Shown here: one piece after another, positions 7,817-39,471 of the stretch
How the letters are laid out: each line of letters starts with the position of its first letter
Position numbering within the stretch: position 1 is the stretch's first letter
Source of the DNA: Algoriphagus sp. Y33
GTDB taxonomy: Bacteria > Bacteroidota > Bacteroidia > Cytophagales > Cyclobacteriaceae
Length of the DNA: 64,000 nt
Assembly (NCBI RefSeq): GCF_014838715.1
Contig: NZ_CP061947.1
Location: 868,001 to 932,000, forward strand
Reading direction: 5' to 3'
Position numbers and translations under genes: made by a program
The notes under the pieces: model-generated
What the model was told of the DNA's origin: nothing
The model's input: the letters and a program-made list of their open reading frames with translations, nothing else
The model's database searches: none

Positions 7817-8638
7817 TTAGTTTGACAGAGCATCCATGTTTGTCCTGATATATTTCTCAGTCCAATCTTTTTCCTCTATAGAAACTTTGGTGAATAACCT
7901 TGAAGTCGATACGGGTATTAGCCAATTCCGGATCTGACCAGATGAGGTGTTGGTCAGTTTCATATATTCCTGAAGGTAGAACCTGGCAAACAGCTTCCGG
8001 TACTTGTTGTGAAGTTGAAAGTAGTGGGAGGAGCTTTTAAGGATGGGGGCAGGAACCGGGTGCTCCTGTACCAGTACGGCATGCACCACATCAGCGATCG
8101 GGTTTCCCCTCAGTGCTTCCTGCCAATCCAGAATTATCGGGCCTTTTGCAGAAAATATGATATTCTCTTGATGAAAATCGTTGTGGCAAAGCCTATCGGA
8201 GTCCGGGAGGTCCCGGAATAGTTTGAGTATTGTTTCAGTGGTATCCCTTCCCAAACGGCCCTGGCTGCTCAGAATCGTTTTTTCCATAAACTCCCGCTGG
8301 TTCGGGAAGTCCGTCACCGGAATGCTGTGCATATCTGCCTGCAGCCGGGCAAACTTTTGGGCGTATATTTTGATTTTATGCGGAGCTTTCCTGAGTATGG
8401 CGGTGATAGTTGGCCCCTTGATATGCTCCATCACGATCCCCTCACGGCCTTCAAGCCGGATGAGGTCTTTTACAGCAGGTACCGGCAGTCCATAAGCCAT
8501 GGCCGCCGCGGTATTGGTAGCCTCCCTTTGCACATGCCGGCTACTGATCTCTTTTCTAAACAGCTTTACCAAAGTATCCGGACCATACATGAAAATTTCC
8601 GACTGTTCTCCTGCTGATATCAATTCACCGAGTTTCAT
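7817..8638 (-). CDS. APH-like small-molecule kinase
   Basis: The 273-residue protein carries the aminoglycoside/choline-kinase-type phosphotransferase signature. A catalytic loop HNDFHQENI lies at about residues 149-157 (HxDxxxxN). The metal-binding LDW segment lies about 20 residues later. An N-lobe with VKLFRKE near residue 25 probably provides the ATP-contacting Lys. The family phosphorylates hydroxyls on antibiotics, choline, amino sugars or other small molecules. Its start overlaps the stop of the hydroxylase gene by four bases (ATGA), so the two are translationally coupled. In this context a likely target is a hydroxyl on the product of the FAAL-PKS, or a head group; self-resistance is an alternative. 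The substrate cannot be read from sequence. Confidence 0.8.
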   Translation of the reverse strand: MKLGELISAGEQSEIFMYGPDTLVKLFRKEISSRHVQREATNTAAAMAYGLPVPAVKDLIRLEGREGIVMEHIKGPTITAILRKAPHKIKIYAQKFARLQADMHSIPVTDFPNQREFMEKTILSSQGRLGRDTTETILKLFRDLPDSDRLCHNDFHQENIIFSAKGPIILDWQEALRGNPIADVVHAVLVQEHPVPAPILKSSSHYFQLHNKYRKLFARFYLQEYMKLTNTSSGQIRNWLIPVSTSRLFTKVSIEEKDWTEKYIRTNMDALSN

Positions 8639-9459
8639 TTCGGCTGGTGTTTAAGGGAAATGCGTTGAAAAGGCAGGTATAAAAACATTACAGTCCGCAC
8701 CACATGGTAGATCATTTTCTTGATGTACCGCTTTCTGTTTCTTAGAAAGTTATATTTTTGATAGAGCATTTGCACGGCTGCTGAAGCCAATACATGTGCG
8801 CAAATCTCATTTTTTCTGTTTCTGAACTCCGGGCGCATCACGTCAAGAATCATGATATACCTCCTTTGCGAAGTGTGGTTCCAAGCGGTATGCGTTCTGG
8901 CGTCACAAAAAGGGAGTGTTTTTCCTTCTTCCCATCCTTTGATCTCGTTGTCTACCTGGAAGCCACATTCCGGTAAGTTGCCCGGTATGGATAGCCCCAT
9001 GTGGCACCTGATCACCGCATCGGTATCACCCTGGTGTGGGTTGATGTTGGATTGTGGTTCCAAGATGCTCAATGATGCAGAAGTACATCCCGGTAAGGAT
9101 TGGAGGATCTTCATCGTCTGTGGGCAACGGTTACAGTTCCTGTGATTTTTCATATTCCAGAAGATCAGCCCCATAGTTTTCCACTTTTTTGGAGGGAACG
9201 ACATGGATTTGTTAATCTTATACGGCTGTAGCCGGTCCGGATCTTCTTCGATCAGACCAAGCAGCTCGTCGCGGATGATCTTCCAGTTTGCCTCCAGGAT
9301 TTTTGTCCAAGGCAATTGCTCCCGGTCGTAAAAGGGAGGATGGTCCCCTTGGTATCTTCCGCCGAAAATACTGTACCAAGGCTCTGCATCCCGGGTGGTC
9401 TGTTTTTCTTCTTTGCGTAAAGGGATGTCTGGGGCATCAATGTTCATTTGATAATTCAT
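8635..9459 (-). CDS. Aspartyl/asparaginyl beta-hydroxylase-fold oxygenase
   Basis: The 274-residue protein matches the AspH domain of Fe(II)/2-oxoglutarate oxygenases. The metal-binding segment INPHQGDTD is near residue 140, RCHMGLSIP follows, then W-x-EGK, and a second histidine region ARTHTAWNHT is near residue 188 with the closing RRYIMILDV. Family members hydroxylate Asp/Asn in proteins, while LpxO, in the same family, hydroxylates a lipid A acyl chain. Both kinds of substrate are plausible here: Asn/Asp-rich glycine repeat proteins and a fatty-acyl PKS product are encoded in the same operon. The C-terminus carries extra basic and hydrophobic residues (YIKKMIYHVVRTVMFLYLPF), suggesting membrane association. 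It overlaps the PKS gene by 23 bases; Met5 is an alternative start. Confidence 0.82.
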   Translation of the reverse strand: MNYQMNIDAPDIPLRKEEKQTTRDAEPWYSIFGGRYQGDHPPFYDREQLPWTKILEANWKIIRDELLGLIEEDPDRLQPYKINKSMSFPPKKWKTMGLIFWNMKNHRNCNRCPQTMKILQSLPGCTSASLSILEPQSNINPHQGDTDAVIRCHMGLSIPGNLPECGFQVDNEIKGWEEGKTLPFCDARTHTAWNHTSQRRYIMILDVMRPEFRNRKNEICAHVLASAAVQMLYQKYNFLRNRKRYIKKMIYHVVRTVMFLYLPFQRISLKHQPK

Positions 9460-12400
9460 TTAAAACGATTTCAATTTCGTCGGACCAATAATTACTAAGT
9501 TGCCCTTCTATCATGTGCACCAAAACCTCGTGCTGCTCACTGACTAGGTCATGCCCTCCGGGAATGTAGAAAATCTTGAAATCCTTAAGTGACAAAAGGG
9601 CCCATTTCCTGACTTTTTCAGGAGACATTAATGGATCAGATTCGCCCACAATGACCGTTAAGGGTGCAGTGACGGCCCCATTGCAGGTTTGATAGGTTTC
9701 CAGGATCTGTATATCTGCTCTCAGCAGGTCTGTAGTTCTTTCTAGGGCCAGCCGGCGTCCATGGTTATGGGTACCTTCGTATTTCTCCATTATGGCATCA
9801 ATAAATTCGGATTGCGGCAACTGATGGATCATGTTACCACTGCCCGTTCCCGGGGCATTGCTGCCTGATAAAAATAAATGGTCGGGTGTACGTTTGCCCG
9901 CTTTTTGAAGTGCTATATAGCACTCATAAGCAGTTAAAGCACCCAAGCTATGCCCAAAGAAGGCATAAGGTCCTTCAGGCGGATCAAATACCTCAACAAG
10001 GGCAGAGATCAACTGGGTCATTGAGGTATAGGGCTTTTCTCCCGCCCGATCGTCCCTTCCGGGGGACTGGATGCCGATGAGCGTGATATCCGGATGGGTC
10101 ACGTTTACCCATGACTGAAAGGCCAGCGGCCCGGAACCGGCATAGGAGAAACAATAGAGTGTAATCGCGGTTTTCCCTTCCGACTCCTTCAGTACTTTAA
10201 ACCAACTGCCGGCCGTGACTTGTGCATCATCCTCAATGGCTGGAACAACTTCTTTTAAAACAGGTTCTTCGACCGCAGCTTCTTCTGTCTTTAGTGGGTT
10301 ATAGACCAGTTCAAACAAGTGGTCGGAAACCGCCCTGATATGTGGATAGTTATAAGCCAACGTGTTGGGCAGCTTGATCCGAAAATACTGCTCCAGCTTG
10401 GAAGCCATCAAAATAGCCATAAGAGAATCCATACCCAAGAAGTTAAACCGTTTGTCATCAGGGATTTCATCTATGGACTCAATCAGCATGACCGATCTTA
10501 GCTCTGTTCGAACTACCTCTTCGATAAGCTCCCGTGCCTTTGTGGGTGAGGACTGCAGGATGCTGTCCAGATGGTCACGTGAGGCCTCGGGAGCAGCACT
10601 AATTGATGTTTTGGCCACCTGTTCAAACAAAGAAGGCTGCAAAGTGAAATCAATGAACGACCTGTATTTTTCCCAATTGATCTTGCTGATCAGGGACAGA
10701 GGCCGGCCAGTACCCAGTTGCAGTTCCATAGCGTTTAGCGCTTCCTGAGGAGGCATCAGCTTAAAGCCCATTTTATCCAGAACCTCTCTTTCTGCTGGCT
10801 TGGCACTCATGCCAACCTCATCCCACGGACCCCAATCAATGCTAAGCGTTTTTTGACCTGCTCCAGAGCGGTATTGGCTCACGGCATCCATGAAGAAGTT
10901 TGCTGCGGTATAATGGCTGAGGTTGACCGAACCCCAGAGTGCTGAAACCGAGGAGTACAAGATAAAGCAATCCAGGTCATGCGGCTTGCTGAGCTGATGA
11001 AGCGCCCAAGTACCGGCTACCTTGATATCAAGGGTGTCAAAAAACTGCGATTCATCCAGCTCCATGATTTTAGAAAACCAGTTGACTCCGGCTGCATGCA
11101 GTATCCCGCGGACAGGTATTTTACGTGCTTCTAGGGAAGCAAACAGGGCTTCCAGTTTTGGAATATTGCTCACATCCAGGCTGGCCACCTCAACTAGTGC
11201 ACCCTGCTCTTCCAGTGTCAGTAATTGCTGAACCAGTTCATGTTGCGGATGATCTAATGCTATTGATGCCCATTCTGTCTTGAGGGGTACACTCCTGCGG
11301 CTGATTAAAACGACATGCCGCGCTCCTTTATCCACCACCCAAGATGCGGTTTCCAAGCCTAAGCCCCCCAGGCCTCCGGTAATGATGAAAGCACCATCAT
11401 TGCGAAAGGTTATAGGTTCTTGAAGTGCCGGTTCGGCCGGGATTAATTGCTCCACATATTGTTCTCCTTGCCTGATGGCAATACAATTTTCTTTTTGGGG
11501 TCGAAGAACCTTGCCCATAATTTGAGCAGCTTTTTCTTCTGGGTTGATGCCCTGCTCAAGGTCGATCATACCACCGCGCCACTCGGGATGTTCCAAATAC
11601 AGGGTTTTTGCAAAACCCCACAGCGGTGAAGAAGTTAAGTTGAGGGATATGGCCTCTTCCGGCATCACCTGCTGTGTGCCCTCAGTAACAATCCATAGCG
11701 GTGGAGTAATAACCACCCTTCTTAGTGCTTTTAGAAATGATATAAAAACGCCAAGGTCTTTTTGTACAGCTTCTTTGAGGTTATCCGTCTCGAGCGTAGC
11801 GCCGCTGCTTGAGGAGTTTTTTGGTAAGAAAACCACCTTCCAGGCATCTACATTGGCTCTGCTTTCACTGGTTACTATTCTGTTGAGTACATTAAAAACG
11901 GACGTGGTATCCATGCCATAGGAAAGCACGGCATCAGGCTTATGGGCATACTTCGTATCCATACCCACCCAGAATACCTGGTGGCCTCTTTTCCTGATCT
12001 TATCCAGTAATGCTTGCATGGCAGGAGAATCTTCCCCCAGAATAATCCATGAAATATTGGCCCTCAAATCCTCAATTTCACCGGGTAGCGTTAGTTTCCC
12101 TTTTTTTACCCAGATGAGATCATAATGGATGGTCGAGTCGGTCTTCCGGTCATGGGCAGGAGGTGCCGGTTTGTAATCAGGGTTGTATATCGGGCCGGCA
12201 AATGCTGAAATATTTTCCGCCTCAAGCCCTTTTACCCAGTAGCGCTGATGGTTAAATACTACTCCCGGTATCATTTCCGGGTACTTTTTGCCATGAAGTA
12301 ACGTTTGCCAGTGAATAGTCCGGCCGTCCTGATAAAGTTTTGCCAGAGAATCAAAAAAGTGACGGGATTCCGTACGTCCTCCTTTGGGGATGTTTAATGA

Positions 12401-15400
12401 CCTGAGCAGCACCAGATCCGACCGGTTAAGGCACTCTCTAATGGCCACCAGCGTACTGGCCCCGGGGCCGATCTCCAAGAAATGGCGGATATCTTCCCTG
12501 GCTAAAAGACCGGCAGCGGAAGAAAAGTGAATCGTCTGGCGCAAATGATTCACCCAGTGATCTGCATTTGGTGCTTCGTTCATTTCCTTGCCAGTCGCAG
12601 AAGAAATCCATCTTTTTACAGGCCGGGTAAAGGTAAATTGAGAGATGTATTCGTGAAAAGGTTTCAGGACAGGTTCCAGCAAGTGGCAATGGAAGGCTAT
12701 GTTCATTCTCAGATTATAGAATTCAATTCCCTGACGCGAAAAGTGGTCTACAACTCGTGCTACTTCTGCCGATTCACCTGCTATTACTGTTTTTTTAGGG
12801 CTGTTGATTACCGCTATCTGGGCCTTTTCCTTGTTCAGGATTTTTTCAACTTCTTCATGTCCGGCGAATATCGTTACCATCCTTCCTTTTTCAGGAAGCG
12901 TATCAACTAATTCTGAGCGCTTCATAAGCATCTTCATGCCTGTCTCCGGCTCAAAACATCCGGCGATACATGCAGCCGCATATTCTCCCAGACTATGGCC
13001 TAAAAGAAAGTGCGGAATGATACCGCACTCCTGCCAAAGCGTGGCCAGTGCATATTGAGTGGCAAAAAGGATTACCTGCAGGTACTTGTCATGCCATACT
13101 TCGTAATGGGTCACTTCAAAAGCAATCTCTTGAAGTGACATCGGAAGGTCTTTATCTTCTATGGCCCCGGCACACCGGTCAAATGCCTCCCGAAAAATTG
13201 GGATTTGATAGTAAAATTCCCGCCCCATGCGCATGAATTGTTCACCCTGTCCAGTGAAGAGAAAAGCTATCTTTTGATCGTTGGATAGCGGAGTGCCAGC
13301 CGGGGAGGTGCTTCGGACGAACTGTTCCAGCTTGTTCCTGATTTCGGTTTTATCCTGCACCAGAAAACATTGTCTGTACCTCAGATGCGACCTGCTTACT
13401 GCCTGGGTGTACGTGAGGTCATTGATGGCCATCTCAGGGTTTGTCTCCAGCCATTCCACCCAGTGTTGAGCCTGTTTTACCAGCCCCTGTGGGGTATGGG
13501 CAGAAATCGGGAATGGCCGGAAGGCGAACATCTTCAGTGGCTTCTCCTCTTCGGTAGTGGTATTTGGAATGAATTGGTGAGCATCCGGTTCTTCTAGAAT
13601 AACATGAGCCAAAGATCCCCCAAAACCAAAGGAACTAATGGCTCCTCTTCTTTTTTCATTTTCAGGGTTCCATTCCCGGGTTTGCGTAGGGATCTCAAGT
13701 CGGGTGTTTTCAAGGTGAATGCGTGGATTTAGTTTTTTGACATGGATCTGAGGCGGAATTTGCTGATGCTGTAACATGAGCAATACCTTGATTACTCCGG
13801 CTATGCCTGCTGCCGTTTCCAAATGTCCGATATTGGCTTTTACAGACCCTACATAGCATTTGTCCTTTGCTGGGACTCCATACAGCATTCCTAATTGCTC
13901 CAGTTCCACAGGGTCACCGGTGGGAGTTCCTGTGCCATGAGCTTCCAGATAATTGATTTGTTTGCCTTCGAGGCCGGCTTCACCCAGTGTCCGGGCAATA
14001 AGCTTGTGCTGTGCTGCCCCGTTAGGGTAGGTGATGCCCATACTATGCCCATCCTGACCTATGGATGAACCTTTAACTACGGCTAGTATCCGGTCTCCGT
14101 CTTTCAAGGCTTCTGATTGCTTTTTCAGCATCACCAGTCCGCATCCCTCTGAGCGAACGTAACCGTCTGCATCGGAATCAAATGTTTTGCACCTGCCTTC
14201 CGGCGACATCATACCAAACTGTGAGAGCGTGATGGTGGTACCGGGAGAAAGAATAGCATTCACTCCTCCAACTATCGCCTGAGTACAGTCACCTCTATGA
14301 ATGGCCTGAACCCCTAAATGAAATGCGGTAAGTGAGGAAGAGCAGGCCGTATCTACTGCCAGGCTGGGGCCTTTCAGGTCATAGAAATAGGACAGCCTGT
14401 TGGCGGCTATACTGTTGGAGTTGCCCAAACCCGAATAGGCGTTAAAGCCATTCATATCAGGTGTAAGCTTTATTTTCATGTACAGGTAGTCATTATTGGC
14501 TATGCCTACAAACACTCCTGTGTTTGAGTTTTGCAAGTCTTCTTTTTGCCATCCCGTATGCTCTAGCAATCTCCAGGATGTTTCCAGCAGCATCCGTTGC
14601 TGAGGGTCGATCTCCGGAGCTTCGTAAGGAGAAATGCCAAAAAGGCCCGGGTCAAACTGATCAATATCATCGGTCAGTCCGGCCCACCGGGTATTCATCC
14701 GGCCGGGCATTGCGGCTTTCGGATCATAGAAAATATCGTTATCCCATCTGCTTTCAGGCACCTCGGAGATGCCATCCACCCCTTGTACCAGTTGTTCCCA
14801 AAACTGCTCAGGGCTGTTAGCTCCCCCAGGGAACCTGCAAGCCATACCCACGACTACTACCGGATCCTCTTTGGGCAAAGCCGGCGGTACAGATGCTTTG
14901 GCCTCCATGGAATATAACATTTGCAATTCGCCGGAAAGGTAGCATGTTAAGCATTTTTGCCTCGATATTTTGTGATTGGAAGTTTTGGGAAGCATTCCCC
15001 GTGCTATCAGATGAATGGTATCTGCAGTTATGCCATAACTCTCCGTTAAGTTGGCCTGAATGCTTTCCTCGATCTGCTTGTAGAGGTTTGGCGATGTGTG
15101 GCGGTGTATTTCCTGAAACACCAGTAACCTTTCCTTATCGGGTCTGATGTGTGCAACGCAGGCCGTGAGATCGTTGCTTTGCAAAAAATCCTGATTTTGG
15201 CGTATGGCATACTCCAGGTCTTCTGCATTGTAATTAACTCCTCTTACGATTACAATTTCCTTTCTCCTTCCGGTAATGTACAGAAATCCATCCTTAATGA
15301 AGCCTAGGTCACCGGTGGCAATGATGCATTCATCATTATCGGAAATGTCGTGGGGTTCAGTTTCCAGATACCCACTGGAATTGTAAGGAGCCTCCATGAT

Positions 15401-16630
15401 AATTTCTCCCTCATGGCCTTCCGGGAGTACTTTGCCACTTTCCGGGTCTTGTACCCGAATGGTTCCCGTTTCTTCATCAATTTCATACGGTGTTAATTTT
15501 CTTTGGTAGGTTCCGGCAGGTTTGTCAATAAAATGATCGTCAAGGTCTTTCAGCCCTTTACCACCTCCGGCAACCAGCAAGGTAGCTTCTGCTAGACCAT
15601 AAACAGGCCTGATAGCATTTGCATTAAAACCTGAGCCGGCATACTTCTCCGCAAAATCATGCAGTATATTGTACGTTACGGTTTCAGAGCCTACATACAA
15701 ATGTCTGAAGTGGCTGAAATCCCACGATTTTGAGGCGGTAACTTTTCGGGTACACATTTCCAGTGCAAAAGTAGGTGCGGCAGCAGCAGTACCCTGATAA
15801 TCATGTATGGCCTGTAACCAAAGGTGCGGAGAGGCAAGAAACGAAGCGGGAGGTAAAAATACCCCAAAGCCGGATTCGTAAAGTACTGTAAACAGATGAC
15901 CTACCAGCCCCATATCGTGGTGAAACGGCAGCCAGCCAACCACCCGCACGCGTTCCCGGCGCTGGAATACCCGGTACATTTTGGAAAGGTTTTGCAGCAC
16001 TTGCCTGTGCGTGAGCATTGCCCCTTTAGGATGGGCCGTAGAGCCGGAGGTGTACTGCACGTAGGCCAGGTCATCAGCTAAAACATCTGGTAAAGTCACC
16101 TCACCCTCCAGCTCTTCATACATCGGCTCCAGCGAAAGCACCCTGACAACCGGGGAAACTTCACTGCTCAATGGACTTTCCCAGGTCTGTCCCCCGACAG
16201 ACCAACCTCCAACAGGCCGTTCAGCTAACTGGCTATCCAACATGTCCTTTTGCCCCTCAGTGACCAATACAGTACTTGCCTTTCCCGACTGCAAGATATT
16301 GAGTATCCGCTCTATACCCGTACGGTCCCGCTTATGCCGGATGAGAGGGAGAGGGGCAGGTACACATCCTGCCAGTATGCATCCAAAGAACGCAATAACG
16401 AAATGTTCCTGCTCTTCAATGGGCAACAAAATTACGTCTCCCTTGATTGTGTTATTGGCCAGATGTTGCGCTACACGGATGCATTGCTCCTTTAGTTCCC
16501 TGAAGGTGAAACTTTGGGATTCAGTAGCCCGCCCGTCTAAAAATAAAAGGACTTGTTCCTCTGCCCGTTCCTCCGGGAAATTCATCACCATATCCTGAAC
16601 AAGTATTCTTTCTGTATTGATCACTTTCAT
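9437..16630 (-). CDS. FAAL-KS-AT-KR-ACP-TE type I polyketide synthase
   Basis: A start at 16630 (MKVINTER) gives 2397 residues; upstream GTG/ATG codons lie inside a dispersed repeat. The order is as follows. (1) Fatty acyl-AMP ligase, about 1-560, with YTSGSTAHPKGAMLTH near 193 and GWLPFHHDMGLVG. (2) Ketosynthase, about 588-1020, DTACSSS with Cys about 763, plus the EAHGTGT and NIGHLE histidines. (3) Acyltransferase, about 1120-1420, GHSLGE Ser about 1213; an IAFH motif near 1310 resembles malonyl-type HAFH. (4) Ketoreductase with TGGLGGLG near 1750 and Tyr about 1907. (5) Carrier protein, GMDSLM Ser about 2069. (6) Thioesterase, GHSLG Ser about 2228, with GGHD. No DH, ER or MT is seen. The predicted job is to activate a free fatty acid, add one C2 unit, reduce to beta-hydroxy and release. 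No carrier domain separates FAAL from KS, which is unusual. Confidence 0.93.
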   Translation of the reverse strand: MKVINTERILVQDMVMNFPEERAEEQVLLFLDGRATESQSFTFRELKEQCIRVAQHLANNTIKGDVILLPIEEQEHFVIAFFGCILAGCVPAPLPLIRHKRDRTGIERILNILQSGKASTVLVTEGQKDMLDSQLAERPVGGWSVGGQTWESPLSSEVSPVVRVLSLEPMYEELEGEVTLPDVLADDLAYVQYTSGSTAHPKGAMLTHRQVLQNLSKMYRVFQRRERVRVVGWLPFHHDMGLVGHLFTVLYESGFGVFLPPASFLASPHLWLQAIHDYQGTAAAAPTFALEMCTRKVTASKSWDFSHFRHLYVGSETVTYNILHDFAEKYAGSGFNANAIRPVYGLAEATLLVAGGGKGLKDLDDHFIDKPAGTYQRKLTPYEIDEETGTIRVQDPESGKVLPEGHEGEIIMEAPYNSSGYLETEPHDISDNDECIIATGDLGFIKDGFLYITGRRKEIVIVRGVNYNAEDLEYAIRQNQDFLQSNDLTACVAHIRPDKERLLVFQEIHRHTSPNLYKQIEESIQANLTESYGITADTIHLIARGMLPKTSNHKISRQKCLTCYLSGELQMLYSMEAKASVPPALPKEDPVVVVGMACRFPGGANSPEQFWEQLVQGVDGISEVPESRWDNDIFYDPKAAMPGRMNTRWAGLTDDIDQFDPGLFGISPYEAPEIDPQQRMLLETSWRLLEHTGWQKEDLQNSNTGVFVGIANNDYLYMKIKLTPDMNGFNAYSGLGNSNSIAANRLSYFYDLKGPSLAVDTACSSSLTAFHLGVQAIHRGDCTQAIVGGVNAILSPGTTITLSQFGMMSPEGRCKTFDSDADGYVRSEGCGLVMLKKQSEALKDGDRILAVVKGSSIGQDGHSMGITYPNGAAQHKLIARTLGEAGLEGKQINYLEAHGTGTPTGDPVELEQLGMLYGVPAKDKCYVGSVKANIGHLETAAGIAGVIKVLLMLQHQQIPPQIHVKKLNPRIHLENTRLEIPTQTREWNPENEKRRGAISSFGFGGSLAHVILEEPDAHQFIPNTTTEEEKPLKMFAFRPFPISAHTPQGLVKQAQHWVEWLETNPEMAINDLTYTQAVSRSHLRYRQCFLVQDKTEIRNKLEQFVRSTSPAGTPLSNDQKIAFLFTGQGEQFMRMGREFYYQIPIFREAFDRCAGAIEDKDLPMSLQEIAFEVTHYEVWHDKYLQVILFATQYALATLWQECGIIPHFLLGHSLGEYAAACIAGCFEPETGMKMLMKRSELVDTLPEKGRMVTIFAGHEEVEKILNKEKAQIAVINSPKKTVIAGESAEVARVVDHFSRQGIEFYNLRMNIAFHCHLLEPVLKPFHEYISQFTFTRPVKRWISSATGKEMNEAPNADHWVNHLRQTIHFSSAAGLLAREDIRHFLEIGPGASTLVAIRECLNRSDLVLLRSLNIPKGGRTESRHFFDSLAKLYQDGRTIHWQTLLHGKKYPEMIPGVVFNHQRYWVKGLEAENISAFAGPIYNPDYKPAPPAHDRKTDSTIHYDLIWVKKGKLTLPGEIEDLRANISWIILGEDSPAMQALLDKIRKRGHQVFWVGMDTKYAHKPDAVLSYGMDTTSVFNVLNRIVTSESRANVDAWKVVFLPKNSSSSGATLETDNLKEAVQKDLGVFISFLKALRRVVITPPLWIVTEGTQQVMPEEAISLNLTSSPLWGFAKTLYLEHPEWRGGMIDLEQGINPEEKAAQIMGKVLRPQKENCIAIRQGEQYVEQLIPAEPALQEPITFRNDGAFIITGGLGGLGLETASWVVDKGARHVVLISRRSVPLKTEWASIALDHPQHELVQQLLTLEEQGALVEVASLDVSNIPKLEALFASLEARKIPVRGILHAAGVNWFSKIMELDESQFFDTLDIKVAGTWALHQLSKPHDLDCFILYSSVSALWGSVNLSHYTAANFFMDAVSQYRSGAGQKTLSIDWGPWDEVGMSAKPAEREVLDKMGFKLMPPQEALNAMELQLGTGRPLSLISKINWEKYRSFIDFTLQPSLFEQVAKTSISAAPEASRDHLDSILQSSPTKARELIEEVVRTELRSVMLIESIDEIPDDKRFNFLGMDSLMAILMASKLEQYFRIKLPNTLAYNYPHIRAVSDHLFELVYNPLKTEEAAVEEPVLKEVVPAIEDDAQVTAGSWFKVLKESEGKTAITLYCFSYAGSGPLAFQSWVNVTHPDITLIGIQSPGRDDRAGEKPYTSMTQLISALVEVFDPPEGPYAFFGHSLGALTAYECYIALQKAGKRTPDHLFLSGSNAPGTGSGNMIHQLPQSEFIDAIMEKYEGTHNHGRRLALERTTDLLRADIQILETYQTCNGAVTAPLTVIVGESDPLMSPEKVRKWALLSLKDFKIFYIPGGHDLVSEQHEVLVHMIEGQLSNYWSDEIEIVLNELSNEH

Positions 16631-16650
16631 GTGTTTATAATTGTTTTCTA

Positions 16651-16738
16651 TTGGCCACATGGAATCTCGCACGGTTTATAATCATCCCACTGTGTGTCGT
16701 CTTCGACATGCTCGATTTCATATATTTTTACTACTATT
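16651..16738. repeat. Dispersed repeat copy A
   Basis: The stretch atggaatctcgcacgg, ataatcat, actgtgtgtcgtcttcgac, atgctcgatttcatat matches two other copies at 51963-52075 and 52083-52192. It lies between the 463-residue gene and the PKS gene. It covers the GTG and ATG that would extend the PKS N-terminus, arguing that those codons are not used. Confidence 0.6.
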
Positions 16739-16815: not shown

Positions 16816-16866
16816 CTACTGCTCTTGCCAACCGCAACTGCTTTTGCCGACTGCCTATTGCTCCTC
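16816..16866. repeat. Degenerate tandem repeat, about 20-base unit
   Basis: Two to three imperfect units of the type gcctactgctcttgccaac / gcaactgcttttgccgact / gcctattgctcct follow one another and run into the last codons of the 463-residue gene. No function is evident. It may be a decayed intergenic repeat captured at the gene's 3' end. Confidence 0.4.
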
Positions 16867-18246
16867 AGCTACACTCTTCGGAATTTTCAGAACGCTTCTT
16901 ACGGATTGGCCATTATTACCTACGCCGGTTAAGGTCACCGATGTGGCATCATTGGGGATCGGGCTGCTTCCTGTATTGATTTTACTTTCATCTATGGAAA
17001 TGCCTCCGGGATCTAACGTGAGCGACTTTAGATTGGTGGTGATCCATGACAGGTCTCCATCCACACTATCAAAATACTGTATCATGGGATTGGTGGTATC
17101 GTTTTTACTGAGGTAATAAATGTCAGTTGAGGGGCCTGGCTGGTAAATAGTTAGCATCAGTTCGTTAGTCCCGAAGGAAGATACAAAAGCTCCCCAATTC
17201 GAAGGGTCAATTGCAAACATGATCCCGGTAAGGTCAGGGTTTTTGTATTTGATATACAAGAGCTGAACGGGCTTTACTTTGACAACAAAGTCGTGCTGTG
17301 CGGGTTGTTTGAAGCCATTGATGATGATGGAATAAGTCACCGAATCTGGCATAAACTGGGCATTATGGTTCCTGATATTGTATATTTTGGTAAGCTCGGC
17401 TCCCGACGTGGTTATAAAAGGGGAGCGCACATTACTTCTGACGGATTGCAGCCACTTCATTTCATTGCTGCTTTCGTACATGGCTTTCCAGGTAAGGGTG
17501 ACTTCCTCGCCCGCTCCAACCGATTGGCTTTCCGTTGGACTAAAAACAGTAATCAAAGGCGGGACTTGCGTAAGCGTGATGGATTCCGGCGGGGATTGAT
17601 TGCCACCGGCCCAGGCTGTTGCAGTGTAAGTCCGTTGAGCATTCGTATCGGAGCCTATGCCAACAGTGTCGCTGCCTGAATAGGGAGGCGTTTCAAATGT
17701 TTTTTCACCTTTTCCGTCAGGGTAGCCTGATATAACTACGCTGGTACTGGCTGCACTTTTGAATTGAAGGTTAGACTCTTGTCCTAACCCAACGATTAGA
17801 GGATCCAGCCAGACAATTACGCCCAACTCTTGTGCCTTTTTGGTCACCGAAACGGATGTTTTACCGGAGTTTATACCAATAAATTCATTGATAGTGACAT
17901 ATGCCGTACCTGTAGAGTTATTGACAGGAATGTCGTTGAATGTAATTTGAACAGTATCTCCCGGATCCAGCGTAGTATCTTTCGTAGCTGTAACGACGAA
18001 GTCATCCCCAACCTTATTGACGGTAAATGGAGTGGAAACATTACCTGTACCGAACTTCAAATTGGTAACGAGATCACCTTGACTATCACCAAACGGAAAA
18101 GTGACAGTGATCGTGTCTCCTCCGCGGCCGGCCTTAAAAGGTATTGGTTTTCCTGAGGTAGGGTTTTGGATAACAAGTTTTAGGTTGTCATTCGAGTTAA
18201 CGAATACGGTATCGGGCAGAAAGGAGTAGTCAAGTAGTGTGCTCAT
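16855..18246 (-). CDS. Beta-rich Ig-like protein of unknown function
   Basis: The 463-residue protein has no signal peptide (MSTLLDYSFLPDTVFV). It is made of Ser/Thr/Val-rich stretches typical of Ig-like or CARDB-like beta sandwiches. The clearest is about residues 230-330, starting ITVFSPTESQSVGAGEEVTL with TLTWKA and a closing HDFVVKVK. The C-terminal third (LLYIKYKNPDLTGIMFAID onward) is not recognised. The gene sits 24 bases after the 1323-residue gene and 182 bases before the PKS reading frame begins. It is probably a structural or binding partner of the large proteins upstream; that is inference from context. Confidence 0.6.
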   Translation of the reverse strand: MSTLLDYSFLPDTVFVNSNDNLKLVIQNPTSGKPIPFKAGRGGDTITVTFPFGDSQGDLVTNLKFGTGNVSTPFTVNKVGDDFVVTATKDTTLDPGDTVQITFNDIPVNNSTGTAYVTINEFIGINSGKTSVSVTKKAQELGVIVWLDPLIVGLGQESNLQFKSAASTSVVISGYPDGKGEKTFETPPYSGSDTVGIGSDTNAQRTYTATAWAGGNQSPPESITLTQVPPLITVFSPTESQSVGAGEEVTLTWKAMYESSNEMKWLQSVRSNVRSPFITTSGAELTKIYNIRNHNAQFMPDSVTYSIIINGFKQPAQHDFVVKVKPVQLLYIKYKNPDLTGIMFAIDPSNWGAFVSSFGTNELMLTIYQPGPSTDIYYLSKNDTTNPMIQYFDSVDGDLSWITTNLKSLTLDPGGISIDESKINTGSSPIPNDATSVTLTGVGNNGQSVRSVLKIPKSVAEEQ

Positions 18247-18270: not shown

Positions 18271-21200
18271 CTAATTGTTTTTGTTGAAGTTGGAAAGGCT
18301 TAGCCAGCCTTCCATCAGACTCAAAGGTTGAGGTGTTAAGGCGGCCTGGGAGGTTTGCTCCGTAATCGTCATATCCTGCTGCCATTCGGTGACATCTTTT
18401 CTGGCTACCCAGGCCCAGTCCCCCCTTACTTCAGCAGGTGTAGGCATCCTGAGCTGATTGGAGTCCAGCAGCAACGGGCCTGTTCTGAATGTGGCGGAAA
18501 GGTTTTCAATGGCTGCGGTCACCGGACCGTTAGGGAGGGAAATGCTACTTCCGGGCAGGCTCCCTGGTATGATCGGCAGATCTCCGGTAGGATCCATGAT
18601 CAACGTAAGCTTTACGGGGCCTTGATTGGCAGCCAGTGCTATCAGGTGATCGGTAATAACATAGCCGGAAGAAGGGGGGGGCGATTTACTTAAAGCAGAT
18701 TTTACCTGATCCAGGGAGAGGGAAGCTCCTCCCGTTTTGAGTAGCTGCTGTAACTCCTGTGTCTGGCCTGTAGATCCATACACCTTATAAAATTTCGTGT
18801 AGTCATCATTGACGAAATAGCCCATCACTCCATTTTTTTTCATGAGGCTGTCACCGATTCGGACGTTAAATTTTACCGACATAAATGGAGGCTCCTGTGG
18901 TTTGTAAATGCCCTGATCGTCATAATACGCTCCGGTCTGGAACCACCCTTGGTTATAGGCGGGTTTGCCAGACAGGGTCAGCTCTACTTCGCCCCTTACA
19001 AGGGCCAGCGGTTTGCCTAGCAGTATGGAGAGGTTATTTCCTTCCTTCAGCGGGTTATTTAACCACAATGTTGAATCAATCGCATTCATCAGTTCGGTAT
19101 AAGCCTGAGCGCCACTGCTGCTGGTTCCTGTTGCTAAAAGGGCATCGATGAAACCCTGAAGGTGGGCATTTGGTAAATCGGGACCCGCACCCAGCGCCGT
19201 GTTGGTGCCCGGGGCGGCATCCCAGCGGATAGTCAGGGTATTGTCATCTCCCGTTACTTCCCTTCGCACCTTGATCACTTCTCCCTGGCTGTTGCCGCCT
19301 GCATCAAATACCATCAAGGCATCATCTAGGTAATTGGCCATTACCCATCCGCAGATAGGGCTGGTGCTGTCAGAGGAATTGGTAAATATTTCATCATTAT
19401 CGCTCTGTAAAAAGCGAGGTGTCATTACGGTATCCTGCGAGATTCTGGGAGGCAACTGACCAAATCTATTGGTGTCACTACCGCTGTAGTTGGGGCTGCT
19501 GGTAGTCATATCAGGAGACCAAATGATGTTTTCTATGGGATCGTCAGGGCCTAATAAATTGCTTTTTCCCGGCAGTATCTGCCCGTAGGAGTCTACCAGC
19601 CACAGGTCCAGCACCTGAAAATGCCCTGACCGGATAGGGAAAAACGGGCCCGCATCCCGGATACCTGTAGAACCGGCGACGGGATCGAAATATGAATTTC
19701 CCGTAAGAAGATCCTGAATACCGGTATCCAGCGGTTGGTTTTTCATGGTGTTCAGCACGGTAGTGAGCTGGAGCGTGAAACCCGCCATGGACTGGGTCAC
19801 AAGATCCATATAAGAAATATTATTGGCTACCCATTGGAGGTTTTCAATGGTGTTTTGGGGTAAATTTTGATAGTTAGGATCGTTTTTAAAAGTGGTAAAC
19901 TTGGTTTGGATATTTTGCGTCGTTTTTTGATTTAAAACAGATCTCCCCTCAAAGACGATTTCAGGAGAAGGTGATTTCAGCTCTGATCCCAGCCATGAAT
20001 AATCCAGTTCGCCCAGCTCCCAGTCCTTCAAGGCATCAGCCTCCTCAGAGGAGGAAGGAAACCATTTGATCTTCCAGTCCATAAATATGGGCGTCCAAGG
20101 GTTTTTGTCAGGCCTGTAGGCCACTCCGACAGGATCTGGCAACAACCCTTCAAAACCGCAGGCTGCAGTCAATGCCTCAGTGGGAGGCTTGGTTTCAAAA
20201 TCAGCCCAGCAGGAGGTTTGCTGGGTTTGAATTTTTGCCGTAAGTTCTTCCAACTGATTTCCCTGGGGAGTTTTTCCCGCCTTCTCAAAATAGATAGAAG
20301 CAATCAGTTGAGCATTGCCGGTATCCAGTAAAAGCACTTCCAGCCATAGCCCCTGCACTTCTTTCGGGAAGGCATTCCAACTTGCCAAAGTGATTTTGCC
20401 CAGGAGATCTTCCCAGGAGATCGCAATGGGCTCCTGTTGTACAGGAGCATACGTTACGCTGATGGCCGTGATGGCCTGTCCGGTGAAGCGGGTGGGTAAC
20501 AACTGCGATTCTCCATTCAGCTCCGGAGGGAGAAGCTTGGTGTCCAGCTCACCTCCGCTGACCAGCACCACGGGGTCTGATGGGGAAGCCACCGGATCCA
20601 GATCTACGGCCTTTAAGATATATTCGTCACCCAGATCAGCCAGAAGGTTTTCGGCGGAGGTTTTAATTGTATTTTGTAAAGTAGTTTGTTGATTCTGGTT
20701 TAAGGTAAGGGCACTACTTATTGCTTTGGTGCTATTGTCTACTTTTTCAGTCAGTAGGGTTAAATTGTTTGGGTCAATGGTAGCGCGATTATACATCAGG
20801 TACTCCTTTTTCATAGCCAAAGCATAGAGCTCAAGCTGCTGGGTAGTTATGGCCCATCCGAGCTCATTGAGTGCAGTCTGGTCAGCGTTCAACTGAGTGA
20901 GTGCCTGGGTCTGTGCCGGATTTAAAGGAATGGACTGTTGCCCCTGACGGTTGTCATCGGATAGGGCTGGATTCGTTGATGAGCCATCTGACCTGACTAC
21001 GATCCATTGCTGTCCGTGGTACTTTTTGTCAAACTTCGCATCATGGATCATGCTTTGGGCCCATTCCGGATCTGTCTGCAAGTCAAACAGCAGGTCACGC
21101 TGAAATGCTTCCAGAGCAATGGCCAGGTTAGGAATGTCTTCTTTAGTAATGCCAGAACCGGGCACTTCCGATGCTTTGGTCGCCATGTAAGTGGAAATTG

Positions 21201-22242: not shown

Positions 22243-23180
22243 TTTTTTACTTGGTCAATGTTGGTAGAAGGATTACAGGGAGGAAAGTTGCTTCCTGACT
22301 CATAGGGTTGTTTCTGTGCGGTTTTGGTCATTTGAATGGCAAATCCACCTGAGGTCAGCTTACCATCTTTCAGAGACCCCGGGGGCATTGTTGTGGTGAT
22401 ATTGTCCACTAAACCCTTGATATTTACGACACCGGCAGGCTGGTCATCCCCTGAGCGGAACGAACCGTAGCCTCTTAGTTTGGTGCCATGCCCGTCTTCG
22501 ATTTGTACTCCGGCAGGGTAACCACCCTCCCCAAGACCTCTCAGGAACAAGTGAAAATCACTTCCATCCTGTGGCGGGTCGTTCGGGAATAACCCAAACT
22601 GGAGGCCTTCGCCCGGTTGAATAAACTCCACTTTATCCGGTACACCGGAAACCATGCATAGCAGTGTGTTGGGCGAGAGGGTATCCATGCGGATGATGGG
22701 TAGGGTGTTTCCCCCCTGTGTAGGGTTGATCTCTATCCCCGGAAAGTCCGCAACTACCTGTGAGCGAAAAATGAAACCTGTAATAGGGCCACCTGCTTCG
22801 CCGGAGTCGGCAGGGGGTGCGTCCCGCAAAGTTGATCTTAGGGTCAGTTGCGCCTTATCTACCTCATCATAGATCTGTTTAAAGAAAGAAAGGTTGAAAA
22901 CGGCATCAGCAGAAGAAAGTACACCCACGCTCAAAGCTCCGTCAACCATCCGGTCCAGCCAGTTTCTGTCTAGGTAGAAGAACCGGATAGATTCGATGGG
23001 TAAAAGCCTAATATCGGGTACCATATATTCTACAGGCACGCCATAAAGCAGGGTTAGCTGCGCCAGCCAGTTTTTTAGATTATCAGGGAGTACCGGAGGG
23101 GGGTATTCGCCGGCCTGCGCTTGTGCCAATTGGGTTACTACATCCGAATGCAGGTCTTCACGATTTGTTAGTGATGCCAT
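22239..23180 (-). CDS. 313-residue protein of unknown family
   Basis: The N-terminal 110 residues are well ordered in appearance: an NWLAQLTLLYGVPVEYMVPD segment, then LPIESIRFFYLDRNWLDRMV and DGALSVG. This looks like a conserved domain dealing with a bound partner, but I cannot name it. The remainder is Gly/Pro-rich and strand-like. There is no signal peptide. It lies four bases after the 502-residue gene and overlaps the 1323-residue gene by four bases. The tight packing of 502, 313 and 1323 suggests one complex. Confidence 0.6.
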   Translation of the reverse strand: MASLTNREDLHSDVVTQLAQAQAGEYPPPVLPDNLKNWLAQLTLLYGVPVEYMVPDIRLLPIESIRFFYLDRNWLDRMVDGALSVGVLSSADAVFNLSFFKQIYDEVDKAQLTLRSTLRDAPPADSGEAGGPITGFIFRSQVVADFPGIEINPTQGGNTLPIIRMDTLSPNTLLCMVSGVPDKVEFIQPGEGLQFGLFPNDPPQDGSDFHLFLRGLGEGGYPAGVQIEDGHGTKLRGYGSFRSGDDQPAGVVNIKGLVDNITTTMPPGSLKDGKLTSGGFAIQMTKTAQKQPYESGSNFPPCNPSTNIDQVKK

Positions 23181-34275: not shown

Positions 34276-35823
34276 TTAAATAGCCCTGCTAGGGTCAAGT
34301 AAACTTAGGTATGCACTCAGTGAGTGACTGGTGTCTCCGGGTACTTTTAATGTGCCGTTAAGAACAACGATGCTATCCACGGGATTGAACAGCGGAAGAC
34401 TACTCAGTGCCGTGGCAATTTTGTCCTGTGGGCGAAGAACCTGATAACTAACGGTCCCAAGCTTGGCATTAAAGGTGAAGGAAAAGGCCGTTCCTGCCCA
34501 ATAATTAGCTCCAAAGGTATAAATACCCTTTATGGGGGGAGGTTCAGTCTGGTTAAAGGTCAGATCTGCGGCTGCCATGTTAGCCAGTACGCCGCCAAAA
34601 CCATGTCCTGTCAGGTATAATTTTTTGTCGCTGTATTTTGCGACCTGGGTTTTTATTTGATCCGCGAGGGTGGTGCCACTGTTGTTGGGGTCCTTGTAGT
34701 AAACATTATTGGCTCCGGTTGCTACCGTTTGCCCATAAGGAGTGCTGGCTGTACTTGTGGCAGCGTCCCACGAAAGAAACTCCTCGAATGTAACAGAGCC
34801 CCTAAAAGCAATGACCACACAGTTTGGGTTGGTAAATACTCCAGCTATAAGGCTTCCTGCATAATCAATGGTTTCAACCAGTACATATGGTGAGGTGCCT
34901 GGGAAGCCCGTGGTGTTGGGTTGCATAGCTTGCTGATAGATCATGGCCGTCATTTTTCCGAGTGAGAATGCCAATGCCTGGCTAAACCCGGAAGACGGAT
35001 TGGGAATAGAAGTGGGCGAAGCGGTAAAAGTCTGCGGCGTTCCCCCTAAAGCCTTCAGATAAAAAACAGAGTCTCTGACTTCCCATGGTGTAAAATATAG
35101 CTGAGGAACGGGGGCTGTCGCCGGAACTGAAGCACCTAAGGGAGCAAAGTCCGATGCTGAGCCGGAAGGCTCACTCGGAAACAGGTCAACAGGTAATGCG
35201 GCAGACCCCGCCGTTACCAGATATGCTTCGCTTACCCGCTGATTATAGAGACTTTGAAAGTCCTTGGTGCCGATATTTCCGGAACTAAAGGCATACGATG
35301 GAGGCTGGGAAGTGAACGGTATGTTTTGGTTAGCAGGTCCTTTTTGACCGGGCCGGAAGTCTAGGGCTACAATTTGCGCTAACGGGCCTCCAAGGCCCAT
35401 TCCGGTGATGTACAATGGTTTTCCGGCTACTCCGGTGTTATTTAAATAGGACAGGCTATCCCAGGCCGGAGATCTCAGATAATTGTAAGCCACGGCATAC
35501 AAGCTAAGGATAGTAGAATTTCCCTGCGGATCGCCCATCACACTTGTAGGCAGCATTTGTTTGTTTTGCGGGGTAAAACCAAAGTGGTACTCACCGAGCA
35601 AGTTGGACCAGGGCAAACCTACGGCCATGCAGGCGATCACATCGCTCCCTACATTGCCGTAAGCCAGCAGGATCTGAATATTACCAACCGTGGGCGCTGA
35701 AACTGACTGGGTGGTCAGGGTCTTCCAGGTGTCGGGTAAATGTGGTGAATTGGTAGTCAGCTCCGGGTTGGCAGCTTCTCCTGCCAGTTGCACCAGGGTT
35801 TGTTGGAGTAGGTTGATATCCAT
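34276..35823 (-). CDS. Duplicated lipase-fold protein lacking catalytic Ser
   Basis: The 515-residue protein contains two class-3-lipase-like halves. The first has LYITGMGLGGPLAQIVALD near residue 140. The second has LYLTGHGFGGVLANMAAADL near 404, followed by IYTFGANYWAG, VLRPQDKIATAL and an earlier CVVIAFRGS beta strand, which is the usual lipase-3 order. In active lipases the elbow is G-x-S-x-G. Here both elbows carry Gly (GMGLG and GHGFG; the codons read GGC and GGT). The fold is therefore probably retained without hydrolase activity, possibly for binding acyl chains or protein partners. No signal peptide is present. It sits 44 bases upstream of the giant gene and seven after the collagen-like gene. 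Confidence 0.72.
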   Translation of the reverse strand: MDINLLQQTLVQLAGEAANPELTTNSPHLPDTWKTLTTQSVSAPTVGNIQILLAYGNVGSDVIACMAVGLPWSNLLGEYHFGFTPQNKQMLPTSVMGDPQGNSTILSLYAVAYNYLRSPAWDSLSYLNNTGVAGKPLYITGMGLGGPLAQIVALDFRPGQKGPANQNIPFTSQPPSYAFSSGNIGTKDFQSLYNQRVSEAYLVTAGSAALPVDLFPSEPSGSASDFAPLGASVPATAPVPQLYFTPWEVRDSVFYLKALGGTPQTFTASPTSIPNPSSGFSQALAFSLGKMTAMIYQQAMQPNTTGFPGTSPYVLVETIDYAGSLIAGVFTNPNCVVIAFRGSVTFEEFLSWDAATSTASTPYGQTVATGANNVYYKDPNNSGTTLADQIKTQVAKYSDKKLYLTGHGFGGVLANMAAADLTFNQTEPPPIKGIYTFGANYWAGTAFSFTFNAKLGTVSYQVLRPQDKIATALSSLPLFNPVDSIVVLNGTLKVPGDTSHSLSAYLSLLDPSRAI

Positions 35824-35830
35824 GATAGGG

Positions 35831-37310: not shown

Positions 37311-37892
37311 TTAGCTTTGTTGAATAAATACTTGACAGTTCATAGACGCATCTCCCAATACCAGTATTTCTCCGCCTGGCTCAACGGTAAGTACCCCGTA
37401 ATTGGCTACTGTTCCGGCATGTAACTCCAGTACCTCTCCAGTTTTCACAGTGTAGTCTGGCTCAGAGTAAGCAGCCAGGGTCGTAGGAAACAAAGTGTTG
37501 TTTATTAAAGCTTTATCGCTTTCACTGATCTTGCTTGGGTTGCCATGGATATAGGCATGGGCAATTCTTTTCAGGTGATGAATCTGATCACTGCTTAGAT
37601 CTCTTCTTTTTTGGTTAGCCTCCAGATTGAGTGGCGCAGGATAAGTGATATGACTATCGTTTTCATCATCAGATGCACCGATCGCCGCTTTGAGGGCATC
37701 AATGTGACCTATAGAAATCAACTTGTGGGGTGTAGTGGTTTTAGCCGGATCTTTTGATAAAACCCTTTTTTTGCTGTTTGCTGATTTTATAAAGCCTTCC
37801 GTTGAAAGGGTGGCGGTATGCTCTCCTGCCTGGAATCCCAAACGAGCTGCAAAAGCTTCAAAATTTTGTTGCTGTTCTTTTGATAGTGACAT
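37311..37892 (-). CDS. 193-aa protein with shared N-terminal module
   Basis: The first 14 residues, MSLSKEQQQNFEAF, are identical to those of the 83-residue protein at 38340. Similarity continues through RLGF and a SKDPAK(T/S)(T/S)-x-P-x-K block to about residue 80. The unique C-terminal half has a short helical part (DQIHHLKRIAHAYIHG) and then strand repeats (ELHAGTVANYGVLTVEPGGE, ILVLGDAS), like a small beta-helix. The identical N-terminus in otherwise divergent proteins suggests a sorting, docking or processing sequence, but no cleavage motif such as GG is seen. Function unknown. It is the second gene of the long operon. Confidence 0.65.
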   Translation of the reverse strand: MSLSKEQQQNFEAFAARLGFQAGEHTATLSTEGFIKSANSKKRVLSKDPAKTTTPHKLISIGHIDALKAAIGASDDENDSHITYPAPLNLEANQKRRDLSSDQIHHLKRIAHAYIHGNPSKISESDKALINNTLFPTTLAAYSEPDYTVKTGEVLELHAGTVANYGVLTVEPGGEILVLGDASMNCQVFIQQS

Positions 37893-38591: not shown

Positions 38592-38820
38592 TGCATTAAA
38601 AGATTTTAGGTTAATTGAAAAATTTCTGAATCTAAAAAATTGGAAACCAATTTCTAATTTTAATAATCACTATAATTATAATAAAATTTAAATAGCAATG
38701 CAAATGTTTAATTAAAAATTATCGTCCTTACCGGAAATATTGCGGATATTCTTAATTTTTTCTCTATAAGTAAGATAGCTGTTTCATTAAATTGGTAGTA
38801 GAATCATTAATTTTGTTGAG
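38592..38820. promoter_or_regulatory. Divergent promoter region of the cluster
   Basis: A very AT-rich 229-base region separates the first minus-strand cluster gene from the plus-strand transferase. It contains an AATTGGaaaCCAATTT palindrome at about 38638-38653, which could be an operator for the minus-strand operon. A TAATTTTG matching the Bacteroidota TAnnTTTG box lies at 38808-38815, very close to the transferase ATG, so use of that box would imply an almost leaderless mRNA. Box assignment is tentative. Confidence 0.35.
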
Positions 38821-39471
38821 ATGGAAATTCATGTTGTAGTGGCTGGAAATGATGGAGATCTATCGTTCGAAGCTTATGCCCGTATCTCTGAACTATTAAC
38901 CAATCAAATGAGAGAAAAAGTGAAGAGCTTTCATTCTTTAATGGATTCTCAGGCTTTCATGATTGGGAAGTACCTAATTGTTCACTCGTTAAAGAGATTT
39001 GGATATAGTGATTTTCGTCTCGATTCTATTAGATTTAATGATAATGGCAGGCCATATCTACCAGGTTCGAATGTTGATTTTAATCTATCTCACGCAGGAA
39101 ACTATGTTGTTTGCGCTTCTGCGCTAAATGTGAGAATAGGGATTGATATTGAAAAAGTTTGTCCGCTGAATCTTAATGATTTTTCAAAGGTTTTCACGGA
39201 AAATGAACTAGAAGCATTTGATAATGCAAATGATACTGATGCGGAATTAATAGCTCATTGGACAATGAAAGAGGCTGTAATTAAAGCTGATGGTCGCGGT
39301 TTTTCTATTTCGCCAATGGAAATAGCTCTGAACAATTCAAAATTGGCCTACCTGCATTCACAAAAATGGTTCATTCAACATATCCCTTTTGACCCTAAGT
39401 ATTTTGTTCATATAGCATGTGATCAAATGATAAAGCCAGAGAATATTTATATTGAAAAAATTTGTATATAA
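38821..39471 (+). CDS. Sfp-type 4'-phosphopantetheinyl transferase
   Basis: The 216-residue protein shows the family signature: GIDIEKV near residue 106 (Mg-binding Asp and Glu) and WTMKEAVIKADGRGF at about 146-160. An N-terminal half typical of the two-lobed Sfp type is present (F-x-D-NGRPYLPG, then FNLSHAG near 80). It transfers phosphopantetheine from coenzyme A to the serine of carrier proteins. The obvious local client is the carrier domain of the FAAL-PKS (Ser about 2069). Its position at the head of the cluster, divergent from the long operon, supports a dedicated activating enzyme. Composition is more AT-rich than the operon. Confidence 0.92.
   Translation: MEIHVVVAGNDGDLSFEAYARISELLTNQMREKVKSFHSLMDSQAFMIGKYLIVHSLKRFGYSDFRLDSIRFNDNGRPYLPGSNVDFNLSHAGNYVVCASALNVRIGIDIEKVCPLNLNDFSKVFTENELEAFDNANDTDAELIAHWTMKEAVIKADGRGFSISPMEIALNNSKLAYLHSQKWFIQHIPFDPKYFVHIACDQMIKPENIYIEKICI

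Follow-up and report, generated by a model that had tools for sequence, protein, structure and literature searches.

A widespread core of DUF6603-associated proteins carries a lipid-enzyme module in one clade

We analysed a stretch of 64,000 nucleotides from Algoriphagus sp. Y33 (NZ_CP061947.1, positions 868,001 to 932,000 of the forward strand; hereafter the window), a genome that consists of a single contig of 6.38 Mb. At positions 7817–39471 of the window lie 12 intact minus-strand genes (7817 to 37892), a truncated copy of the p193 gene and a divergent, plus-strand gene for a phosphopantetheinyl transferase (PPTase; Table 1), in agreement with an earlier note on this DNA, which had counted thirteen minus-strand genes, the 83-codon reading frame included, beside the PPTase. 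Neighbouring intact genes are separated by at most 44 bases or overlap by at most 23, with the sole exception of 182 bases (16673–16854) between the p463 gene and a polyketide synthase (PKS) gene, where the core part meets the enzymes. We found that the cluster is composed of two modules: a widespread core (a DUF6603 giant, p502, p313 and p1323), often followed by a p463-like protein with a lineage-variable C terminus (kelch, propeller, lectin or tail collar), and a lipid module, made up of an AspH-fold oxygenase and either a FAAL-type one-module PKS or discrete ketosynthases, which is bound to one clade of cores along with a pseudo-lipase and glycine-rich proteins.

Table 1. Features of the cluster at window positions 7817–39471
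Feature	Position	Strand	Remark
p193, N-terminal domain	37311..37892	-	fused with the Gly-rich part in one protein of 396-397 amino acids in Fulvivirga, Algoriphagus and Vibrio
Gly-rich (GGX-repeat) protein, 223 amino acids	36619..37290	-	
Gly-rich protein, 258 amino acids	35831..36607	-	
Tandem lipase-fold protein (pseudo-lipase)	34276..35823	-	Lipase_3, E 2e-19; nucleophile Ser absent from both motifs
DUF6603 giant, 3183 amino acids	24680..34231	-	Pfam E 3.6e-136; domain at residues 2073-2590
p502, core protein	23185..24693	-	no known family; many other lineages have it fused to p313
p313, core protein	22239..23180	-	no known family
p1323, core protein	18271..22242	-	no known family
p463	16855..18246	-	Ig-like by eye only
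One-module lipid PKS	9437..16672	-	AMP-binding(FAAL-type)-KS-AT-KR-ACP-TE; catalytic motifs present
AspH-fold dioxygenase	8635..9459	-	nearest named models OlsC and LpxO, far under their cut-offs
APH-fold kinase	7817..8638	-	optional in the clade; PF01636, 70.8 bits; HxDxxxxN (HNDFHQEN) and metal-binding D (DWQE) motifs
Truncated p193 N-terminus paralogue, 83 codons	38340..38591	-	matches the start of the Algoriphagus fused p193-Gly-rich gene
PPTase, divergent	38821..39471	+	Pfam ACPS and AASDHPPT_N; the Algoriphagus cluster adjoins one too, 84% DNA identity

Pfam searches recovered the domains that had been named from the sequence, namely AMP-binding (for the FAAL), KS, AT, KR, one ACP and TE, and Asp_Arg_Hydrox, APH, DUF6603 and Lipase_3. 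At E 0.01 they gave no family for p502, p313, p1323, p193 or either Gly-rich protein, and only a sub-threshold PPR_1 match for p463. Searches of Pfam, NCBIfam, PHROGs and PADLOC gave no significant match for p502, p313 or p1323, leaving DUF6603 as the only recognised part of the core. Some earlier descriptions had to be revised. Proteins labelled collagen-like are Gly-rich (GGX), lack a Pfam collagen match and appear by eye to be rich in Asn and Asp. The lipase-fold protein does lack the nucleophile Ser, as proposed, and can be described more closely as having two degenerate hydrolase motifs, GMGLG and GHGFG, in place of the G-x-S-x-G of active class 3 lipases; of the 12 sequences compared, only those of Hahella, Chitinophaga and Pseudoalteromonas have a Ser in at least one motif. 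The N terminus said to be shared by a pair of proteins is indeed common to p193 and the frame at 38340–38591, the second of which is a truncated gene.

Near-identical gene order recurs in Belliella, Fulvivirga, another Algoriphagus, Vibrio, Hahella, Chitinophaga and Parapedobacter. The order is thus kept from Bacteroidota to Vibrio and Hahella, which is more than chance. It is accompanied by small differences, such as the fusion of p193 with the Gly-rich part in three of these seven relatives and one more small gene ahead of the PKS in Chitinophaga and Parapedobacter. In a 19-residue hydropathy scan of 13 cluster proteins, made without a dedicated signal-peptide predictor, 12 had no hydrophobic stretch over the threshold, and a single run was found inside the PKS. 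This result fits a cytoplasmic or unconventionally released assembly, without proving such a location.

The core extends far beyond these relatives. A protein search with p502 across 296 genomes of the phylum found a match in 7, the window's own genome included, and in these 7 genomes DUF6603, p1323 and a p502-like protein, which is often a fusion with p313, share one neighbourhood, in some cases with genes between them. A p502 alignment scan of 84,980 species genomes yielded 186 confirmed relatives, from which 80 loci were used for further analysis, and a 44-sequence profile matched 9 of 299 Pseudomonadota, one of which was the chosen centre. The final map, in which counts are hits of hidden Markov models (HMMs) on all open reading frames, holds 96 regions that were selected by their p502 match, G046 having come up first by DUF6603 and p1323; the map omits the G026 region and counts two contigs twice (L068 = G105, L073 = G154). 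Among the 96 regions, p313 is present in 95 and DUF6603 and p1323 in 91 each, with several of the misses being contig ends. Of the 87 regions that have all three marker genes, 77 show the order DUF6603, p502, p1323 on a single strand; p1323 lies on the opposite side in the other 10 and is also inverted in Moorena. A tree of 88 p502 rows contains 11 phylum-level groups that are mixed repeatedly, which, with the caveats of the method, suggests transfer.

Among 72,556 plasmid records p502 matched 8, every one at less than 60% identity. A Streptomyces plasmid carries a DUF6603 gene, then a 'hypothetical' gene with a match to p502, then two further hypotheticals of suitable size; at a distance of about 9 kb from its DUF6603 gene is one annotated as encoding a CATRA conflict system caspase/TPR repeat-associated protein (L181:936-13809). 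A distant group of cores (G430, G469, G634, G645 and G676; L162-L165, L170-L173 and L176-L177) has DUF6603 giants of 3247–3390 amino acids, and in all of these genomes except G430 a protein of 1122–1274 amino acids, propeller-like by eye, was seen after p1323. The mapped regions of this group contain no ketosynthase (KS) or AspH.

In the tree, the window p502 belongs to a clade of 22 rows, the window included (SH-aLRT 99), which we call clade A. DUF6603 open frames measure 3122–3801 amino acids at 18 of its 21 other loci, the remaining three being cut by contig ends. Giants of this length also occur in 10 of the 75 regions outside the clade (two being the same contig); those of Taibaiella, Aquimarina and Mucilaginibacter have no AspH or lipase of the clade-A kind in their regions. 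Of the 22 clade-A members, window included, 20 have KS-containing enzymes, be it a PKS or discrete ketosynthases, and 18 have an AspH; the AspH figure by region alone is 15 of 21 loci, and two further checks of contig positions, one of them covering 50 of the 80 loci, supplied L047 and L061. Among the other loci, L052 ends before the place of both KS and AspH, and L048 and L059 before that of AspH. The pseudo-lipase was found at 17 and the p193 family at 14 of the 21 loci. Outside the clade, the 75 regions gave AspH in 1, KS in 5 and neither pseudo-lipase nor p193 in any, a comparison in which the flanks are unequal and many outside-clade regions span only about 10 kb. We therefore compared the 80 original loci on an equal footing: KS occurred in 15 of 21 clade loci versus 0 of 59 others (p = 8e-12), and the corresponding counts were 12 and 0 for the lipase (p = 5e-9) and 4 and 1 for AspH, which mostly lies beyond these short loci (p = 0.016).

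The five outside-clade KS regions hold the PKS of a Pyrinomonadaceae contig, a ketosynthase about 13 kb from p463 in Taibaiella helva, a set in G122b that by eye resembles the housekeeping fab set, and single cases in G589 and G660; in our judgement, all but the Pyrinomonadaceae PKS are background. In the two last-named Pseudomonadota (L168 and L174, respectively), the ketosynthase lies upstream of a short-type DUF6603 core and, in G589, is preceded by a protein that looks FabZ-like by eye. The APH kinase, found in 5 of 17 extended clade-A regions (Belliella, Fulvivirga, Algoriphagus, Vibrio and Pseudoalteromonas; some of the other twelve end early), is an accessory that is optional in the clade. 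The earlier note had treated the large proteins and the enzymes as one system. Across the wider family, homologues of the large proteins do occur without PKS or AspH genes, the outcome that the note had named as refuting its reading; in the window's 22-sequence clade they travel with them, and the proposal that enzymes and giants are inherited as one unit stands for this clade. These data support the view that giants and lipid enzymes belong together in one clade and not in the core generally: the lipid module belongs to that clade, and the core is not defined by the lipid.

Within the clade, the enzymes diverge together with the core. Over 55 pairs from 11 taxa, the identity of p502 correlated with that of the PKS (r = 0.93), AspH (0.89), p463 (0.97), p1323 (0.985) and p313 (0.98), and over 36 pairs with that of the lipase (0.90). 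All 13 PKSs compared have intact FAAL, KS, AT, KR and ACP catalytic residues, and the TE motif is present in each of the 12 that reach it, with small changes beside the catalytic residues, such as GYSLG for GHSLG in one AT. The nonsynonymous rate (dN) was well below the synonymous rate (dS) in 23 of 27 gene comparisons, dS being saturated in the other four. In Methylobacterium, Rhodospirillum, Azospirillum, Janthinobacterium and Moorena, discrete ketosynthases replace the PKS (with a KR-like reductase as well in Janthinobacterium), and these taxa carry an AspH-fold protein of a second subfamily that is set apart by long branches. Janthinobacterium holds both subfamilies, its PKS-type copy standing on a long branch with unsure placement.

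A PKS and an AspH also lie beside a core of another p502 clade, 33–37% identical to the compared clade-A sequences, on the Pyrinomonadaceae contig (L082). Both enzymes are nearest to those of Bryobacteraceae (PKS 54%, AspH 69%); a PKS tree without outgroup places L082 with two acidobacterial PKSs at support 100, and the AspH tree leaves its grouping open. AspH adjoins the PKS on this contig and in the clade-A loci that have both, and stands apart from the KS in some loci with discrete ketosynthases. At E below 1e-90, AspH was found in 3 of 842 genomes, from three phyla, these being the window's own genome and two chosen centres, all known beforehand to bear the core; a further seven matches with an E value of 1e-30 or lower had identities of 33–38%. 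Given the co-divergence, the second AspH subfamily that comes with discrete ketosynthases and the Pyrinomonadaceae pairing, the lipid enzymes very probably work with the core.

The domains of these enzymes indicate what they might make. AMP-binding, KS, AT, KR, one ACP and TE lie in one PKS chain, and a DIP2-like C-terminal domain match in the AMP-binding part suggests the FAAL type. Pfam shows no DH, ER or second ACP, and a stretch of about 340 residues from AT to KR has no match; a single round would therefore give a 3-hydroxyacyl chain. The AspH-fold protein scores 152.4 bits against PF05118 (Asp_Arg_Hydrox; cut-off 22.6), 132.7 bits against the OlsC model and 86.8 bits against the LpxO model, the last two far short of NCBIfam cut-offs of 450 and 500. 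LpxO and OlsC hydroxylate acyl chains at C2.

The DUF6603 giant matches PF20248 with 455 bits over profile positions 1–493 of 502 (curated cut-off 27 bits). Its N-terminal two thirds contain tandem repeats of about 200–270 amino acids, spaced near 250–270 in residues 250–1030 and 200–230 in residues 1140–1790; in a profile comparison of 240-residue slices from 28 long DUF6603 proteins (300 slice pairs), the best pair reached a probability of 98 and E 2e-13. Alignment-averaged hydrophobicity of DUF6603 alternates strongly (z = 6.7) and has a helical periodicity below that of shuffles (z = -4.6), a strong alternation that is absent from the p502–p313, p1323 and PKS profiles. For single sequences, the alternation z was 8.9 in a TamB control, 4.2 in residues 2050–2700 of the window giant and 0.7 in its C-terminal part. 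The DUF6603 pattern fits amphipathic beta sheets, be they a lipid groove, a barrel or a solenoid, which this pattern does not tell apart.

At or near the place of p463, 45 chosen proteins had little sequence in common: 7 matched kelch models, 4 matched Phage Tail Collar, and single members matched Laminin_G_3 and B_lectin. The window's own p463 gave no kelch, propeller, lectin or tail-collar match. The p463-like protein may be an exchangeable recognition part.

Taken together, we consider it possible, with a probability of roughly 0.4, that the cluster encodes an unexported, presumably lipid-binding assembly of several proteins, which would have an exchangeable subunit for recognition and in this clade carry a hydroxylated fatty acyl chain as its load. 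The core proteins would form a particle or scaffold without passing through Sec export, in which the DUF6603 giant would offer a long amphipathic beta surface to hold acyl chains and the p463-like subunit would recognise a target. The PPTase would arm the ACP; the FAAL and PKS would extend a cellular fatty acid by malonyl and, after one keto reduction, the TE would release a 3-hydroxyacyl product. Like LpxO and OlsC, AspH might put a further hydroxyl on the acyl chain. The pseudo-lipase would bind the product, and the loaded assembly would carry or display the lipid. A bolder proposal, which we regard as rather unlikely, is that DUF6603, p502, p313 and p1323 form an undescribed class of assemblies in at least 11 phylum-level groups, an unexported vehicle for hydrophobic cargo with an exchangeable tip, for which two distant enzyme sets would have been recruited in one clade to supply a hydroxylated fatty acyl ligand.

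Several observations weigh against a lipid-loaded assembly. Most cores outside clade A have no lipid enzyme, which means that what the core does in general cannot hinge on this lipid. Even inside the clade, the core of Niveispirillum has neither KS nor AspH in 53.8 kb, a true absence. The core is itself not invariant, as there is no DUF6603 in about 10 kb upstream of p502 in L069, L081 and L084. Clade counts reflect shared ancestry and not independent events, the HMMs for KS, AspH, lipase and p193 were built mainly from clade-A sequences, and the Pyrinomonadaceae case is one 23.6-kb metagenome contig. As to structure, long DUF6603 proteins show alternation (z 6.3) with no helical deficit (z 0.0), and the N-terminal repeat region appears to be mixed beta and alpha, with an alternation z of 2.9 and a helical z of 2.2 over the N-terminal 2050 residues of the giant. 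Residue periodicity is the single line of evidence for the putative lipid-binding surface.

The enzymes could instead have nothing to do with the core physically. PKS, AspH and APH kinase may form a free-standing metabolite cluster that releases its product, with the core as a separate structure that shares the same island and makes no contact with the lipid. Cores without enzymes are the rule outside the clade, dS to Belliella is mosaic by block so that the enzyme block may recombine separately, and the 182-base gap falls between the two blocks. Against this stand the co-divergence (r ~0.9 over 11 taxa), the presence of two distant enzyme sets in the same clade of cores and the fact that, among 842 genomes, an AspH this close was not seen outside the three that bear the core. 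We consider such independence unlikely.

The lipid might also be covalently attached to a cluster protein and anchor the assembly to a membrane; unexported proteins with no obvious signal or transmembrane segments would need such an anchor. The lack of hydrophobic stretches in 12 of 13 cluster proteins and the dedicated acyl synthase with its TE speak for this arrangement. Pfam, however, recognised no acyltransferase in the cluster besides the PKS's own domains, and TE-terminated PKSs usually release a free acid or ester, which makes this arrangement improbable. Slightly less probable again is that the AspH-fold enzyme, like eukaryotic AspH, hydroxylates Asp or Asn of the Gly-rich or Ig-like proteins and that the PKS lipid is unrelated. 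The Asp_Arg_Hydrox assignment and the many Asn and Asp residues seen by eye in the neighbouring Gly-rich proteins agree with this idea; that the nearest named models are acyl hydroxylases, though below their cut-offs, and that AspH keeps its place next to the PKS in the loci described above argue against it.

The history of the cluster may be composite. Compared with Belliella, dS is 0.42–0.85 from p463 to the lipase and saturated for PKS, AspH and APH; compared with Algoriphagus, AspH and APH are closest (0.45–0.48) and the lipase is saturated. These block-wise differences suggest block recombination. At the 5' end, positions 38332–38750 match the start and upstream region of the Algoriphagus fused p193–Gly-rich gene (80% DNA identity), and the intact genes at 34276–37892 resemble the Belliella set, so that this end of the cluster looks mosaic. 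A short dispersed repeat (79–88% identity) occurs at 16662–16730, in the p463–PKS gap at the boundary of core and enzymes, and at 52002–52182, with similar stretches in the same-genus genome G019 and in Algoriphagus. An argument for a recent island from GC content (cluster 0.480, flanks 0.370 and 0.424) was dropped, because in relatives, too, the GC content of the cluster exceeds that of its flanks. The match of G019 to the window starts at 39682 and runs rightwards (90.7% over 2.86 kb); G019 has no cluster gene in the 17 kb to the left of the match and no DUF6603 at all, which shows absence and not the exact ends. To the right of the cluster, 40770–43508 and 57222–59885 have a similar architecture of glucose/sorbosone dehydrogenase, PKD and cytochrome c; to its left, 3545–5023 encodes a DUF4403 protein.

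Other origins were considered and set aside. A phage origin found no support: p502, the only protein so tested, was absent from 50,697 phage records, and 0 of 40 IMG/VR pattern matches were confirmed. One Gly-rich protein has weak PHROG structural or tail matches (E 0.004–0.011). An anti-phage defence role was likewise rejected, PADLOC matches being weak only (E 0.03–0.05, in 2 of 7 scanned proteins). No known fold was recognised by sequence for p502–p313, for DUF6603 or for p1323, whose hits were weak and scattered and included several helical or coiled-coil chains. The literature search returned no paper that names DUF6603 or PF20248 and nothing relevant on clusters of giant and collagen-like proteins with a PKS.

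Four large protein families without an assigned function thus travel together through many phyla, and the clade with lipid enzymes offers a chemical handle on a possible ligand of the core. If the lipid does sit on the complex, this would be a new kind of bacterial lipid-carrying machine, testable in culturable strains.

No known system matches the block, although several share parts with it. The window giant has its named domain in common with the DUF6603 family (PF20248; 'DUF6603 domain-containing protein' in RefSeq), to which no function is attached, and differs in that clade-A giants have about 2000 extra residues before the domain, much of it repeats. The acyl 2-hydroxylases OlsC and LpxO are the named models that match the AspH-fold protein best, far short of their cut-offs, and Pfam recognised no ornithine-lipid or lipid A synthesis gene in the window cluster. 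The PKS has the same domain set, with intact motifs, as FAAL-led type I PKSs of the lipidic polyketide and mycolic-acid type, but it is a single module with one recognised ACP and is linked to structural giants, where those enzymes are linked to additional PKS or NRPS modules. Finally, compared by sequence alone with the repeating-beta-groove carriers TamB, AsmA and VPS13, the DUF6603 giant lacks a Pfam match to them and, by hydropathy, a membrane anchor, and its repeats of 200–270 amino acids have helical content; it is nevertheless like them in its size, its tandem repeats and its alternating hydrophobicity.

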